64,000 nucleotides of DNA. It comes from Caulobacter sp. BK020. Lineage in GTDB: Bacteria; Pseudomonadota; Alphaproteobacteria; Caulobacterales; Caulobacteraceae. This document shows positions 21,415-25,599 of this stretch, one piece after another (position 1 is the first letter of the stretch; each line of letters opens with the position of its first letter). The stretch lies in assembly GCF_004342605.1 (NCBI RefSeq), contig NZ_SLZL01000001.1, forward strand, positions 248,001 through 312,000, written 5' to 3'. The notes below the pieces were generated by a model. The model saw only the letters and a list, made by a program, of their open reading frames with translations. It was not told where the DNA came from and ran no database searches. The position numbers and the translations under genes were made by a program.

Positions 21415-21709
21415 GCGCGCGTCGGGTCCTGGTCGTAGGTCTCGACGGATGGCGCTTTAGCTCAAAGCCCCATCCGCCTTGGGCGGGGCTCGGGCTGGGC
21501 GGTCGCTTAGAGCGAACGGACCCGGCCGATCCCGCGAGGCGAGGTCGGATGGTGGTGGCGGCCGTGATGGTGCGGCAGGCGGGTCATTGCGGGGCGGTGT
21601 TTAGCGGAAGGCGGGCGTGGGGGGAAGGGGTGAGCGAGTATCTTGAAGCGCCACCTACTCCTTCCAGACACAATCTATGGTGGCGTATATCCGGGCCAGC
21701 AAGCGGTAC
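21415..21709. other. Junction between hisS and the AT-rich island
   Basis: About 295 bp upstream of both the divergent hisS and the island. GC drops noticeably from about 21650 onward. GACACAA at 21667-21673 repeats a half-site of the downstream palindrome. No tRNA or att-like duplication is visible at this edge. Confidence 0.4.
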
Positions 21710-21747
21710 TTGCGCAATCCATCTCGACACAACAATATCGTTGTGTC
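21710..21747 (+). promoter_or_regulatory. Candidate promoter and operator of the three-gene island
   Basis: GACACAAC-AATATC-GTTGTGTC at 21726-21747 is a perfect 8-bp inverted repeat ending at the base before the ATG at 21748. A TTGCGC -35-like hexamer (21710-21715) lies 17 bp before CAATAT (21733-21738) inside the palindrome. If used, the mRNA would be essentially leaderless and repressor binding would block it. The obvious candidate repressor is the XRE domain of the second gene. Confidence 0.5.
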
Positions 21748-22212
21748 ATGATTCCACCATTCGTCGCCGTTCCAGGTGCGCCGCACCTAGTACTGCCGCC
21801 AGGAGTCCACTGGGCAACTCTCGCCGAGGCGGGAGAGCGTTTTGGCGTAGGCGATAGGAGAAATTGGTTGTTTGAAGGCGTGACGGCAGCTGCGGGCGCA
21901 TTGGCGTCGGCCGGTTGTGGGTCTCTATATCTCGACGGTAGCTTTGTGACCTCGAAGATTGAACCAGATGATTTCGATGCTTGCTGGGACCCAAGGGGAG
22001 TAAACGCCCAAGCGCTTGATCCACTGCTGCTGGATTTCACCGCAGGCGGGCGGCGCAGGCAAAAGCGGGTATATCGAGGCGAGCTTTATATCAGCGGCGC
22101 ACCGGTCGGCGGCGGACTGACCTTTCTTGAGTTCTTCATGGTCGAAAAGCACACAGGCGGATCGAAAGGGGTCATCGGCATAGACTTGTCCCGAACGGGG
22201 TCCACACACTGA
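21748..22212 (+). CDS. DUF6932-type nucleotidyltransferase-like protein
   Basis: A 154-residue protein. The N-terminus MIPPFVAVPGAPHLVLPPGV matches the usual opening of DUF6932 proteins, so I start at 21748 and not at the in-frame ATG at 21643, which would place the palindrome inside the gene. The core LYLDGSFVTSKIEPDDFDAC contains a GS-x9-DxD pattern, the catalytic signature of minimal nucleotidyltransferases (GSx10DxD). Such folds act in several toxin-antitoxin and defence systems by adding nucleotides to RNA or protein. Its function here is unknown. The stop overlaps the next start (TGATG). Base composition is markedly more AT-rich than the neighbouring chromosome. Confidence 0.72.
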   Translation: MIPPFVAVPGAPHLVLPPGVHWATLAEAGERFGVGDRRNWLFEGVTAAAGALASAGCGSLYLDGSFVTSKIEPDDFDACWDPRGVNAQALDPLLLDFTAGGRRRQKRVYRGELYISGAPVGGGLTFLEFFMVEKHTGGSKGVIGIDLSRTGSTH

Positions 22213-23507
22213 TGATCACAAATGAACGGCAATATCGGATCACCCGCGCCCAAGCCGAGAAATTCCAAGTCGCATTAGGCGAGAACAACGAACTTGAGCT
22301 GATCCGCTCGGGCGTAGACCCCATCATCGCGGCCGCCCATAAACGCGGCCTCCAAGAGCAACTTCGTGAGTTGGAGAGGCAGCTCTCGGATTACGACAGC
22401 CTTCGCAGCGGCCATCAATCTGAGCTGGTCGCTGATCACCTGTGGCAAATTGGCGAACGGCTGATCCAAGCCCGTGTGGCGTGCGGGCTTACTCAACGTG
22501 AGCTCGCTGATCGGCTCGGCGTGAAGGAGCAGCAGATTCAGCGCTACGAACAAGAGCGCTATCTAACAGCAAATCTGGAGCGCCTCTCTGCAATGGCAGA
22601 GGCACTCTCGCTCTCAATTCATGTAAGACTACAAGTTTCAGTGCAGTCTACTGGTTCACCGCTGCCAGACAATCATCGTGTAGACGCATCACGATTGCCA
22701 GTTCGCGAAATGAAAAAACGGGGCTGGCTTAATGAATTTTCCGACGAAGAAGGCGATGCTCGGAGGTCGGATAGTGATCTGGCCGCACTCTTCATTTCTC
22801 GACATCACGGCCTGAGAGGGCCGGCGGCGCTCCATCGCATGAACGTGCGCACCGGTTCGACTCTCGATAACCACGCCATGGTCGCTTGGAAGGCGCGCAT
22901 CTTGCAGAAAGCTCGCCAATTTCTACAGGGCGCGCCAACTACATTCGAACCTTTGGACGCTAGCTTTGTTCGAGAACTTGTCGGACTTAGTCGTAGTTAC
23001 GATGGTCCGGTTCGCGCGGTTCATGCACTTCGAGAAAGGGGTGTAGTCACTGTATTCGAGCCCCACCTGAAGGGCACCCATTTGGATGGAGCGGCGTTAC
23101 TCCTAGACACCGCGACGCCCGTCATTGGACTGACCTTACGCTTTGACCGATTGGACAATTTTTGGTTCACCCTTCTTCATGAGCTTGGGCACGTTGTGCT
23201 TCATCGTGACAGTGGGCTGAAGGACGGTTTCTTCGACGACAATACCGTTACCTCCGAGTCCGTCGCGGAGGGCGAGGCCGATCATTTCGCTGAGAATGCG
23301 CTAATCCCGGACGAAGCGTGGAGAACCTCCTTCGTCAAATTCACAAAATCGTCCTCGGAGGTGCAACAATTTGCAAAGCGGTATAATGTTGGTGACTGCG
23401 TAGTGGCAGGCAGGATTCGCCGCGAACGTGGATACCACTTGTTCAAGGATTTGATTGGTTCTGGTTGTGTAAGAGAGTTGATTTCGGACGCAGGTTTAAT
23501 GGAGTAA
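22212..23507 (+). CDS. XRE-family regulator fused to ImmA/IrrE metallopeptidase
   Basis: A 431-residue two-domain protein. Residues 1-75 are helical (RGLQEQLRELERQLSDYDSL, an antitoxin-like dimerisation segment). About 79-133 is a Cro/C1 HTH (ARVACGLTQRELADRLGVKE). About 240-400 is an ImmA/IrrE zinc peptidase with HELGH at 323-327 and the third-ligand region EGEADHFAENALIP at about 353-366. In mobile elements such proteins cleave or are repressors, switching genes on after DNA damage or infection. Here the DNA-binding and protease modules are in one chain. It lies between the NTase-like and beta genes, translationally coupled to the first. Confidence 0.85.
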   Translation: MITNERQYRITRAQAEKFQVALGENNELELIRSGVDPIIAAAHKRGLQEQLRELERQLSDYDSLRSGHQSELVADHLWQIGERLIQARVACGLTQRELADRLGVKEQQIQRYEQERYLTANLERLSAMAEALSLSIHVRLQVSVQSTGSPLPDNHRVDASRLPVREMKKRGWLNEFSDEEGDARRSDSDLAALFISRHHGLRGPAALHRMNVRTGSTLDNHAMVAWKARILQKARQFLQGAPTTFEPLDASFVRELVGLSRSYDGPVRAVHALRERGVVTVFEPHLKGTHLDGAALLLDTATPVIGLTLRFDRLDNFWFTLLHELGHVVLHRDSGLKDGFFDDNTVTSESVAEGEADHFAENALIPDEAWRTSFVKFTKSSSEVQQFAKRYNVGDCVVAGRIRRERGYHLFKDLIGSGCVRELISDAGLME

Positions 23508-23515
23508 GGCCGTTG

Positions 23516-24661
23516 ATGTCGCTACTTGGTAGGGTCGGTTATATTCCAATTCTGAAATCCAAGATGGGAGAGTGGCGAGCGCTCGGCAGCATACCTGCTC
23601 AGGACCAGGACTGCATACTTCCGCTAATGGTAGTTCCGCCTGCGGGTGACTTCGATCCGGAAGCCGGCCAAGCGCTTGAACCCGCCGAACATCTAAAGCG
23701 TTTCGGCGGTCGAGCGTTCGACTATTGGGGCCGACGCCCCTTCTTCGTTGACGCCTTCCATGTTGACGACGAAAGGCATGCTGGTGAATCCGGTATTCAC
23801 CCGCTCACCTCCTTGCTCGGGCGCGCTGCCTTGGCGGGAGCTCGGGCTTACCCAGCCACATCGCTACGCCATACACCAGCCTATCAAACAGCCGTCGCGC
23901 AGTTCGTTTCAAAAAATCCGGGTGCACCAATTTGCGTGCGCCTGAACGCCGCCGAGCTCGAAGGTGATCGGTTAGCTGAAAGCCTCGACGACCTTCTAAG
24001 GTCAATTGATTGCACCGTGCAGCAAGCCACGATAGTAGTTGATCTCACCAGCCTCGAACTTACTGCTGATGAACACTTCGTCGATAACTTGCTCACTCGC
24101 CTAAATTATCTGCCCAACCTCCACGATTGGATGCAACTGGCGGTAACGCTAACAAGTTTTCCAGAAATTCCAAGGGTAGTTCCTGGAGAGCGTATTCGGC
24201 GAGATCGCACTGATTGGCAAATTTACCAGATGCTCTTGGCATGTGGAGAACGGCTTTTTCGCCGTCCAATTTTCAGCGACTGCGCACTGGAATTTCCAAA
24301 TTACAAACCAGCCGGCCGGGCAACACCGAGAGCACGATTCAGATATTCTACGACTTCCGAGTATGTGATCGACTCAGGTACCACCACTAAAAAGCCCCAC
24401 GGCTATCAAGCAATCTTCCCAGTCGCTCGAACGCTGGCAAGCTCGCCCGAATTCAGCGGTGAAACGTTTTCTCGAGGAGATGCCTTTATCGCGTCCCTAG
24501 CAGCGGGCAGAGCAGGGCCAGGTCAAGCTTGGCAATGGAGATGGGCCTCAACTGATCACCACCTCCATCTCATCGTAGATCAATTAAGACCCATACTTGG
24601 ACTACCGACGAGGGCCACCCAACACGCCCCTCCCGAACCAGAGCAAGCTCTTCTGTTGTAG
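23516..24661 (+). CDS. Beta-family protein (phage P4 beta-like), function unknown
   Basis: A 381-residue protein. Its opening, VGYIPILKSKMGEWRAL then CILPLMVVPP, matches the family named after the beta protein of satellite phage P4 (YVPILK-x-GE-x-AL ... PL-E). Further on are hydrophobic strands alternating with helices (ATIVVDLTSLELTADEHFVD), suggesting an alpha/beta barrel-like fold, and a C-terminal WRWASTDHHLHLIVDQL. No catalytic motif is obvious. I start at 23516, where TAAGG precedes by 6 nt; the gap to the previous gene is 8 bp, so it is co-transcribed. Probable effector or accessory of the island, but this is inference. Confidence 0.7.
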   Translation: MSLLGRVGYIPILKSKMGEWRALGSIPAQDQDCILPLMVVPPAGDFDPEAGQALEPAEHLKRFGGRAFDYWGRRPFFVDAFHVDDERHAGESGIHPLTSLLGRAALAGARAYPATSLRHTPAYQTAVAQFVSKNPGAPICVRLNAAELEGDRLAESLDDLLRSIDCTVQQATIVVDLTSLELTADEHFVDNLLTRLNYLPNLHDWMQLAVTLTSFPEIPRVVPGERIRRDRTDWQIYQMLLACGERLFRRPIFSDCALEFPNYKPAGRATPRARFRYSTTSEYVIDSGTTTKKPHGYQAIFPVARTLASSPEFSGETFSRGDAFIASLAAGRAGPGQAWQWRWASTDHHLHLIVDQLRPILGLPTRATQHAPPEPEQALLL

Positions 24662-24778
24662 ATTGGACATTCCAACCAACTTCAACGGCCCGGGCCGAGC
24701 GGTGGTCGGCCGGCATTGCCTAAGGTGCCGATTTCCTCTCGCCAACTCGACAACCACACGACCGCGCCGGTCGGGACC

Positions 24779-24930
24779 CAGCCTTACATCTCTCGTAGGC
24801 AGCAGCGTGCCGGGCTGGGCAGGTCAGTCAAGGACCGGCCGTCGGCCGGCCGCGACGCGGCGACGCGGAGCGTCGTCCTTGAGTGACCTGCCCAGCCCGG
24901 CGATCGTCTCCGCCGTGAGATGTAAGGCTG
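24779..24930. repeat. Large inverted repeat at the right edge of the AT-rich island
   Basis: CAGCCTTACATCTC at 24779 pairs with GAGATGTAAGGCTG ending at 24930. Further in, CCGGGCTGGGCAGGTCA pairs with TGACCTGCCCAGCCCGG, and the arms (about 55-60 bp) are interrupted by short mismatched patches. The centre also contains GCCGTCGGCCGGC-type hairpins. It resembles a palindromic dispersed element and not an IS: no transposase frame lies between the arms. Confidence 0.7.
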
Positions 24931-25599
24931 GCTCCCCTTCGTGGGCGAAGGGGGCGAGGTCGGTCCAGCCGGCCGACTCAGCAGGTGTTTAGGGGATAGG
25001 CCGCGCTCCATCCCCGCCAGACGCGCGACGAAGCCCAGCAAACTCAATGCCTTGCAGAAAAATCAGCGTCACCAGCGCCGCCGCGCTCGGACACCGGCCA
25101 TACTGGTCCTCGCCCCACCACCGGGGAGGCCGTCCAGCTGGCGACCTGGCGGGTGGCGGGGGCGGTCGAGCGGGAAGCGTCCGCCGGCCGGCGTCGCAGG
25201 GTCCCGGTGGACCGGTCGGCGGAACGTGGGGGGCCCTGGATGGGGCCTCGGGCGGGCCGGACCGGGCGGCGGGATCAAGCCCTCGGCGCCGAACGGCGAC
25301 ACGCGGCAGGCGCGGGCTGAAATCGCCCGCGCGGTCCGGACGGGGTCGTCGCCCCTCCGCCCGGCCCATTTAAGCAAAGAATGGGGCCTCCATCGGAGCG
25401 GGTTAAAACCCCGCGCCCCGAAGGCTCTCGTCCACCGGCCGCGCGGAGCGCCCGTGACGTGTCGAAACGGTACTCTCCAAAACAACATTCCGGGCATGCC
25501 CCGGGCGCTTCGCCGCCTCCCCATCCCTCAGCGGGTTTCCGCGTGAGCGCGCGGACGCTCGCCCCACCGCAACCTGACCAGCCCTTCAAGGAGACTCCC
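24931..25599. other. Gene-free GC-rich stretch
   Basis: About 670 bp with overlapping open frames on both strands, none with a ribosome-binding site, recognisable motif or plausible composition. It contains hairpins such as GCGGG-TTAAAAC-CCCGC near 25399-25415. It precedes a small gene that has a good Shine-Dalgarno, so part may be a long leader or an RNA gene, but I cannot assign a known RNA. Confidence 0.4.

Follow-up and report, generated by a model that had tools for sequence, protein, structure and literature searches.

In the genome of Caulobacter sp. BK020, an island of three genes with a GC content of ~50-60%, set in a region of ~67-74%, opens with a palindrome that ends on the base before its first start codon, and the question that this arrangement raises is what the palindrome controls and which protein reads it. 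The window analyzed here is the whole stretch of 64,000 nucleotides in which the island lies, and the following features are needed at the outset.

21726 to 21747, no strand assigned: predicted operator, a perfect palindrome GACACAAC-AATATC-GTTGTGTC, conserved in relatives.
21727-21746, within the predicted operator: conserved 20-mer core of the palindrome.
21748 to 22212, + strand: gene A, DUF6932 (PF22014), 154 aa, nucleotidyltransferase-like, with an invariant GS-x9-DxD.
22212 to 23507, + strand: gene B, 431 aa, with an N-terminal helical domain, an Xre HTH and a C-terminal ImmA/IrrE peptidase (HELGH); PADLOC PD-Lambda-2_B.
23516 to 24661, + strand: gene C, Beta_protein (PF14350); PADLOC PD-Lambda-2_C.

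The start of gene B overlaps the stop codon of gene A by one base, the last. Protein B has the domains HTH_3 and Peptidase_M78 and matches PADLOC profile PDLC03982 with E 1.5e-79 (residues 92-426), and protein C matches PF14350 with E 6.2e-51 and PDLC03984 with E 2.3e-29; the PD-Lambda-2_A profile gave no match to gene A up to E 0.1 in PADLOC. Gene A, the one DUF6932 gene in the genome, encodes a protein whose G64, S65, D75 and D77 (the GS-x9-DxD motif) are invariant in 43 sequences. Its model (pLDDT 95) yielded no Foldseek match at E<=0.001 and a weak best structural match to 2rff (VIA Z 5.5, rmsd 5.0 over 92 residues) in a list dominated by nucleotidyltransferases, and the model thus suggests a protein that is nucleotidyltransferase-like, and nothing beyond that. 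No paper was found in the literature under the name DUF6932. Downstream (3') of gene C, at 24773-24936, lie two nested long inverted repeats with arms of 27 nt (96% complementary) and 23 nt (91%), possibly a terminator or a mobile-element remnant at the end of the island. Judged by its gene sequences, the cassette is PD-Lambda-2-like, with DUF6932 in place of the HigB-like first gene: as described for PD-Lambda-2, it has three genes in the same order, with B as an Xre-peptidase fusion and C as a P4 beta-like protein (Vassallo et al., 2022; PMC9519451). PD-Lambda-2 of E. coli is reported as an abortive-infection defence whose toxic B protein is neutralised by A; the passages on the system do not discuss an operator, and the string "autoregul" occurs 0 times in the main text (PMC9519451).

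A perfect GACACAAC-N6-GTTGTGTC abutting ATG 21748 had been described in the original prediction, and correctly so: two perfect arms of 8 bp enclose a spacer of 6 nt, and the start codon is the next base. In the 64-kb window this is the sole place within 3 mismatches of the pattern, while dinucleotide shuffles of the window contained at least one such place in 18 of 100 cases (mean 0.20); across the 5,132,395-base genome (5.13 Mb), the 20-mer core has one exact copy and one other place with 2 mismatches. A bare inverted repeat in 250 nt reaches, by local shuffling, a P of only ~0.03-0.08, which makes the palindrome by itself weak evidence and is the one point that speaks for a chance repeat or a site of some unrelated host regulator. 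The argument for a putative operator is carried by conservation, the palindrome alone being only marginally above chance. One further element had been drawn into the proposed switch.

21667 to 21673, + strand: lone half-site GACACAA, at chance level and not conserved.

This half-site, 59 bp upstream, does exist, but the role assigned to it is rejected: GACACAA-type 7-mers number 4 in the window against 3.23 expected, which is chance, and an extra half-site accompanies 8 of the 81 loci with the site, vs 3.2 by shuffling, tandem sites explaining part of these.

Relatives were collected with a protein B query, which found 63 loci in genome contigs, and with other searches that raised the number to 99. 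Genes A, B and C were located in these by profile, giving 59 rows with gene A and enough upstream DNA; the rows are DUF6932 operons that homology searches with protein A or B turned up, and they count the window's own operon twice. Scored against ACACAAC-N6-GTTGTGT, the best place near the start of gene A has at most 1 mismatch in 49 of the 59 and at most 3 in 57, mostly 1-2 nt ahead of the start codon; the two misses are L048, whose perfect site is displaced upstream by another 94 nt, and L069, where no site was found. Looking for the palindrome upstream of homologous operons had been proposed as a check, and the palindrome proves to keep both its place and its sequence in many phyla: among the organisms listed or placed in the tree are Pseudomonadota, Acidobacteriota, Chloroflexota, Planctomycetota, Verrucomicrobiota, Actinomycetota, Spirochaetota, Rhodothermota and several candidate phyla, with the reservation that many relatives are metagenome bins and single phylum labels may therefore be wrong. 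Cyanobacterial plasmids are also among the organisms in the set. In three of these (L238, L242, L244) the sites have A-rich centres, and L238 and L244 carry two tandem palindromes spaced by ~30 bp, of which the second touches the start codon, so that their promoter layout differs.

Samples drawn by other routes agree with this picture. Among 385 genomes of the host's class, a motif-first search found 5 exact sites, 3 of them at DUF6932 starts (G000, G205, G511) and 2 elsewhere (G178, G207), and the reversed control pattern had 0 matches. This distribution, like the single exact genome copy and the conservation across phyla, stands against an unrelated host regulator or chance, an account so improbable that, with the covariation described below, we judge it refuted. 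Searching the same class genomes for DUF6932 first, the family occurred in 11 of 385, 7 of which had B in the DNA examined; six of the seven match the site with at most 3 mismatches, and in the remaining one the helix of B is a different one. DUF6932 genes with no detected B had the site in 0 of 4 cases, so the idea that the site is a property of DUF6932 itself was rejected. A plasmid sample found by protein A alone comprised 28 records, of which 18 were taken and 10 left out as near copies or partial by listing; 11 of the 18 have a site, 5 of the ACACAAC type and 6 of a second type, TTACAACATTATTGTTGTAA, and the 7 with no site at the start all lack the helix QQ[IV]Q[RK][YW]E. In four other phyla, represented by 251, 146, 139 and 135 genomes, B relatives occurred in 9, 12, 6 and 1 genomes, respectively; the cyanobacterial and planctomycete ones mostly have other helices and no such site, except L277, L279, L292 and L293. 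Protein A had no match in 50,697 phage records, and among viral contigs protein B had a single relative, L255, which carries the helix and has no recognisable site. Viral contigs scanned for TTGAC plus an AGAC- or ACAC-type palindrome yielded 8 and 7 loci, and in no case did a B-like protein follow within 1200 nt; bare-palindrome matches in viral contigs were excluded from all counts. In a literature search with the two arm sequences, none of the 8 papers listed, out of 1,088 matching two of three terms, has a title on this cassette.

The protein that reads the site is indicated by the predicted recognition helix of B, in which one residue deserves its own entry.

22527 to 22529, + strand: codon of Glu106 of protein B, the covarying first residue of the predicted recognition helix, placed by covariation and model.

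The helix was compared with the site in the 107 of 110 loci with 600 nt or more of DNA ahead of B (the other 3 were excluded), with at most 3 mismatches to either type counted as a site. Loci whose B protein has the QQ[IV]Q[RK][YW]E helix carry the site in 73 of 75 cases, those with other helices in 2 of 32 (Fisher 7e-22, without correction for ancestry). The two helix-positive loci with no site are L055 and L069; of the two other-helix loci with one, L097 is one residue off the pattern and L248 is a weak match. Several cyanobacterial relatives have a QQVQRDE helix and no site within the 135 nt examined. The Xre helix of the present cassette differs from that of other B relatives lacking DUF6932, L012 excepted. 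On an Acinetobacter plasmid (L245), a DUF6932-B pair lies just after tnsE, with a different helix and no such site, and gene C there is cut short before an IS30 element and NDM-1.

The first helix residue varies together with the second base pair of the half-site. For this comparison, sites were found by their inner core (positions 3-7) only and base 2 was read afterwards; a good core was present in 80 of 88 loci, and those lacking one (L051, L053, L055, L069, L070, L255, L264 and L276) were left out of the table. Glu goes with C/C in 61 of 63 loci, Lys with G/G in 3 of 3, and Ala with T/T in 5 of 5, four of the last being near-identical rhizobial plasmids, and the code is looser for Pro (T/T in two, C/C in three), Gln (T/T, C/C and C/T, one each) and Thr (C/A, one). 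In a tree built with the covarying residue masked, the Lys-G loci stand at two separate points, and a single clade holds all the T/T loci. One Lys-G case, L267, comes from the 251-genome set and was not used in forming the covariation idea, and a further Lys-G pairing, read by eye, occurs in L292 (Lys with AGACAA/TTGTCT), which lies outside the search pattern because its helix reads KQCIQQYE. The third half-site base changes symmetrically in L062 (ACCCAAC), with no change in the helix region shown. On one contig of genome G602, the paralogous cassettes L267 and L274 lie ~57 kb apart and pair Lys with AGACAAC and Glu with CCCCAAC-CCACAAC, respectively.

In a model of residues 1-147 of B, the recognition helix spans 106-114 and starts at the covarying residue; in the alignment with 434 Cro, the closest relative in the PDB (1zug, E 1e-5), that residue falls at the start of the Cro helix. 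The model had no Foldseek match at E<=0.001, and its fold list is made up of Xre-type repressors and antitoxins, HipB among them. The phage 434 proteins Cro and repressor offer the closest solved HTH by sequence, with a Gln-rich start of the recognition helix, whereas the half-site spacing is longer here than in 434, and B adds a helical domain at its N-terminus and, frequently, an ImmA peptidase. The 434 half-site is ACAA, and Gln28 reads its base pair 1. In work of Wharton and Ptashne from 1987, a Gln28Ala mutant of 434 repressor reportedly prefers T at that base pair, a preference that would be in line with the Ala-T pairing by analogy. Likewise, in a published model of the 933W repressor, a lysine adjacent to the first residue of the helix makes contact with the guanine of operator position 2, which by the same kind of analogy would be in line with the Lys-G pairing.

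Where the site lies relative to the promoter bears on how it might act.

21736 to 21741, + strand: TATCGT, a predicted -10 element lying within the palindrome where the logo of 53 relatives has the conserved TATTGT; an inference for the window.
21710 to 21715, + strand: TTGCGC, a weak candidate -35 that matches at 3/6 positions and stands 3 nt beyond the place of TTGAC in the family.

The logo was built from the 59 rows minus L003, L011, L077 and L086 (copies or near copies), L048 (its site being 94 nt further upstream) and L069 (no site). Its arm positions hold 1.2-2.0 bits of information content, TTGAC stands at -14 to -10 (T91 T70 G74 A72 C66 percent), and T-A-T-(T)-G-T occupies positions 9 to 14 after a 17-nt spacer, a layout that sets +1 at the start codon or one base ahead of it. 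Columns further upstream are at ~0 bits, which points to selection on the site and not to recent copying. A -35 at -14 with at least 4/6 matches occurs in 57 of the 81 loci, and several others have TTGAC one base further out. In the window, a -10 at 21736-21741 is predicted to set +1 at 21748. The -35/-10-like pair that the original prediction had described is weak: TTGCGC can be joined to CAATAT at 21733-21738 (17 nt) or to TATCGT at 21736-21741 (20 nt), and a consensus promoter scan of the window reported TCGACA/CATGAT and neither of these. With the -35 of the window degenerate and misplaced, the basal promoter may be weak, or the true start may be off by a few bases.

The statement that there is no room for a ribosome-binding site holds, because the 22 nt ahead of the ATG are the palindrome itself, and an SD-like core was found in the tested stretch of 0 of 53 relatives. 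The start codon follows the 20-mer by 1 nt in 28 of these, by 2 nt in 17 and by another short distance in 5, none being found there in 3, a geometry compatible with a leaderless transcript in the 45 of 53 with a distance of 1-2 nt. An upstream start of gene A at TTG 21643 is disfavoured, the conserved N-terminus beginning at the codon equivalent to ATG 21748, and an in-frame start beyond the palindrome is absent in 29 of 53 relatives; by these alignments ATG 21748, not TTG 21643, is likely the start of gene A. Leaderless mRNAs are reported as common in Caulobacter, with 375 mapped (PMC4117421), and leaderless transcription combined with autorepression would fit the geometry.

The same palindrome could also act as RNA, if transcription started upstream and the arms formed an mRNA stem-loop beside the start codon that controls translation. 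The strand folds with a z of -3.35 and an 8-bp stem in the minimum-energy structure, and the symmetric arm changes in L002, L010, L051, L062 and L091 would keep such a stem too. A hairpin, however, leaves two things unexplained: the loop bases are kept as those of a -10 element 17 nt downstream of TTGAC, which is the layout of a DNA promoter, and the arms change together with a single helix residue of B and disappear in loci with a different helix. The hairpin is accordingly considered very unlikely.

Taken together, the palindrome is very probably the autoregulatory operator of its own cassette, bound by a dimer of B and governing a leaderless A-B-C message, because the site is conserved, tracks the recognition helix of B and covaries with one residue of that helix. 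The switch by the XRE protein of the same operon that had originally been proposed is thereby supported at the level of sequence comparison, through conservation, the 73/75 vs 2/32 association and the residue-base pairing; likewise, an operator for the operon's own HTH protein overlapping the promoter, as in type II toxin-antitoxin autoregulation, is what comparison, and comparison only, reveals. In the mechanism envisaged, a dimer of B (Xre HTH plus ImmA/IrrE peptidase) would bind the two ACACAAC half-sites through its EQQIQRYE helix and, because the site covers the -10 element and the start point, would block RNA polymerase; with the site free, transcription from or beside the A of ATG 21748 would yield a leaderless mRNA of A, B and C. 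Repression may end when B is lost or is cleaved through its ImmA domain, or when A binds. ImmA is described as needed for the proteolytic inactivation of the Xre repressor ImmR (PMC2701414), a precedent that makes peptidase-driven release plausible here by analogy, although it would not be the sole route, because short-B cassettes use the same site and lack the peptidase. Counted against the operator are the poor -35 of the window, the loose Pro/Gln/Thr code, the symmetric third-base change of L062, the helix-positive loci with no site (L055, L069, L255) and the siteless cyanobacterial relatives with QQVQRDE.

A variant that accepts the operator and changes its regulator is less probable, though it deserves weight: the site may be bound by an A-B complex with conditional cooperativity, or B may also activate, as C proteins do. 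A and B are adjacent and coupled, the ATG of one overlapping the stop of the other, the site occurs mainly where both are present, and in published PD-Lambda-2 it is A that neutralises the toxic B (PMC9519451). Yet the site is also present where A is undetected or partial (L012, L073, L079, L096, L097), and the 0 of 4 sites at DUF6932 genes with no detected B indicates that A alone does not carry the specificity; for an activator, the site would be expected upstream of the -35.

Autoregulation by B can be set beside two further families. The controller (C) proteins of restriction-modification systems are likewise described as small Xre regulators with a palindromic C-box in their own promoter, with leaderless transcripts in C-protein operons and with regulator families grouped by operator sequence, but their C-boxes are paired repeats (PMC4824078), whereas here a single palindrome covers the -10 and reaches the start codon, and no restriction or modification gene is among the three genes. 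RptR, the repressor of a defence island, is reported to repress its own operon from palindromes that overlap the -10, with regulator and site co-conserved and defence genes downstream; its site, however, is a palindrome of 6 bp, repeated in tandem 31-58 bp ahead of the start codon and conserved across Gammaproteobacteria (PMC12255303), as against a site of 20-22 bp at the start codon, found in many phyla and with helix-site covariation.

What follows the operator differs among relatives. Of the 81 loci with the site, A and an HExxH-bearing B occur together with C in 24 and with C undetected in 21; 23 have A and a short B; and 13 are others or cut. With the remainder thus variable, the conserved unit is the site together with DUF6932 and the HTH-bearing N-terminal portion of B. 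In L012, B and C occur with no A, and a 2-mismatch site lies just ahead of B. Several plasmids with no C have a DUF4186 protein and then further genes: L238, L242, L246 and L251, which lack the beta protein, carry a DUF4186 gene followed by another gene (radical SAM in L251), possibly a different payload. In five rhizobial plasmids (L239, L240, L243, L254, L241), an opposite-strand gene of the sce7726 family follows C, 5/5. At L073:3001-6501, a B-type HTH begins an open frame of 1167 aa that extends as far as the locus does; in it, Pfam finds HTH families only, and HExxH is present. A tentative extension, which we rate a little below an even chance, is that a portable unit of -35, operator over the -10 and start codon at +1 crosses phyla with the DUF6932-Xre pair and becomes joined to different payloads, and that a one-residue code at helix position 1 (Glu-C, Lys-G, Ala-T) insulates co-resident copies, as in G602.

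Regulatory DNA usually diverges fast; here, ~30 bp are kept across phyla whose proteins share only ~40-50% identity, so control of the cassette is predictable from sequence. The depth of this conservation and the helix-base covariation give the operator its added interest, the latter amounting to a natural experiment on HTH specificity and on the avoidance of cross-talk between copies of a defence-like cassette, and DUF6932 is pointed to as a component of a PD-Lambda-2-like system.
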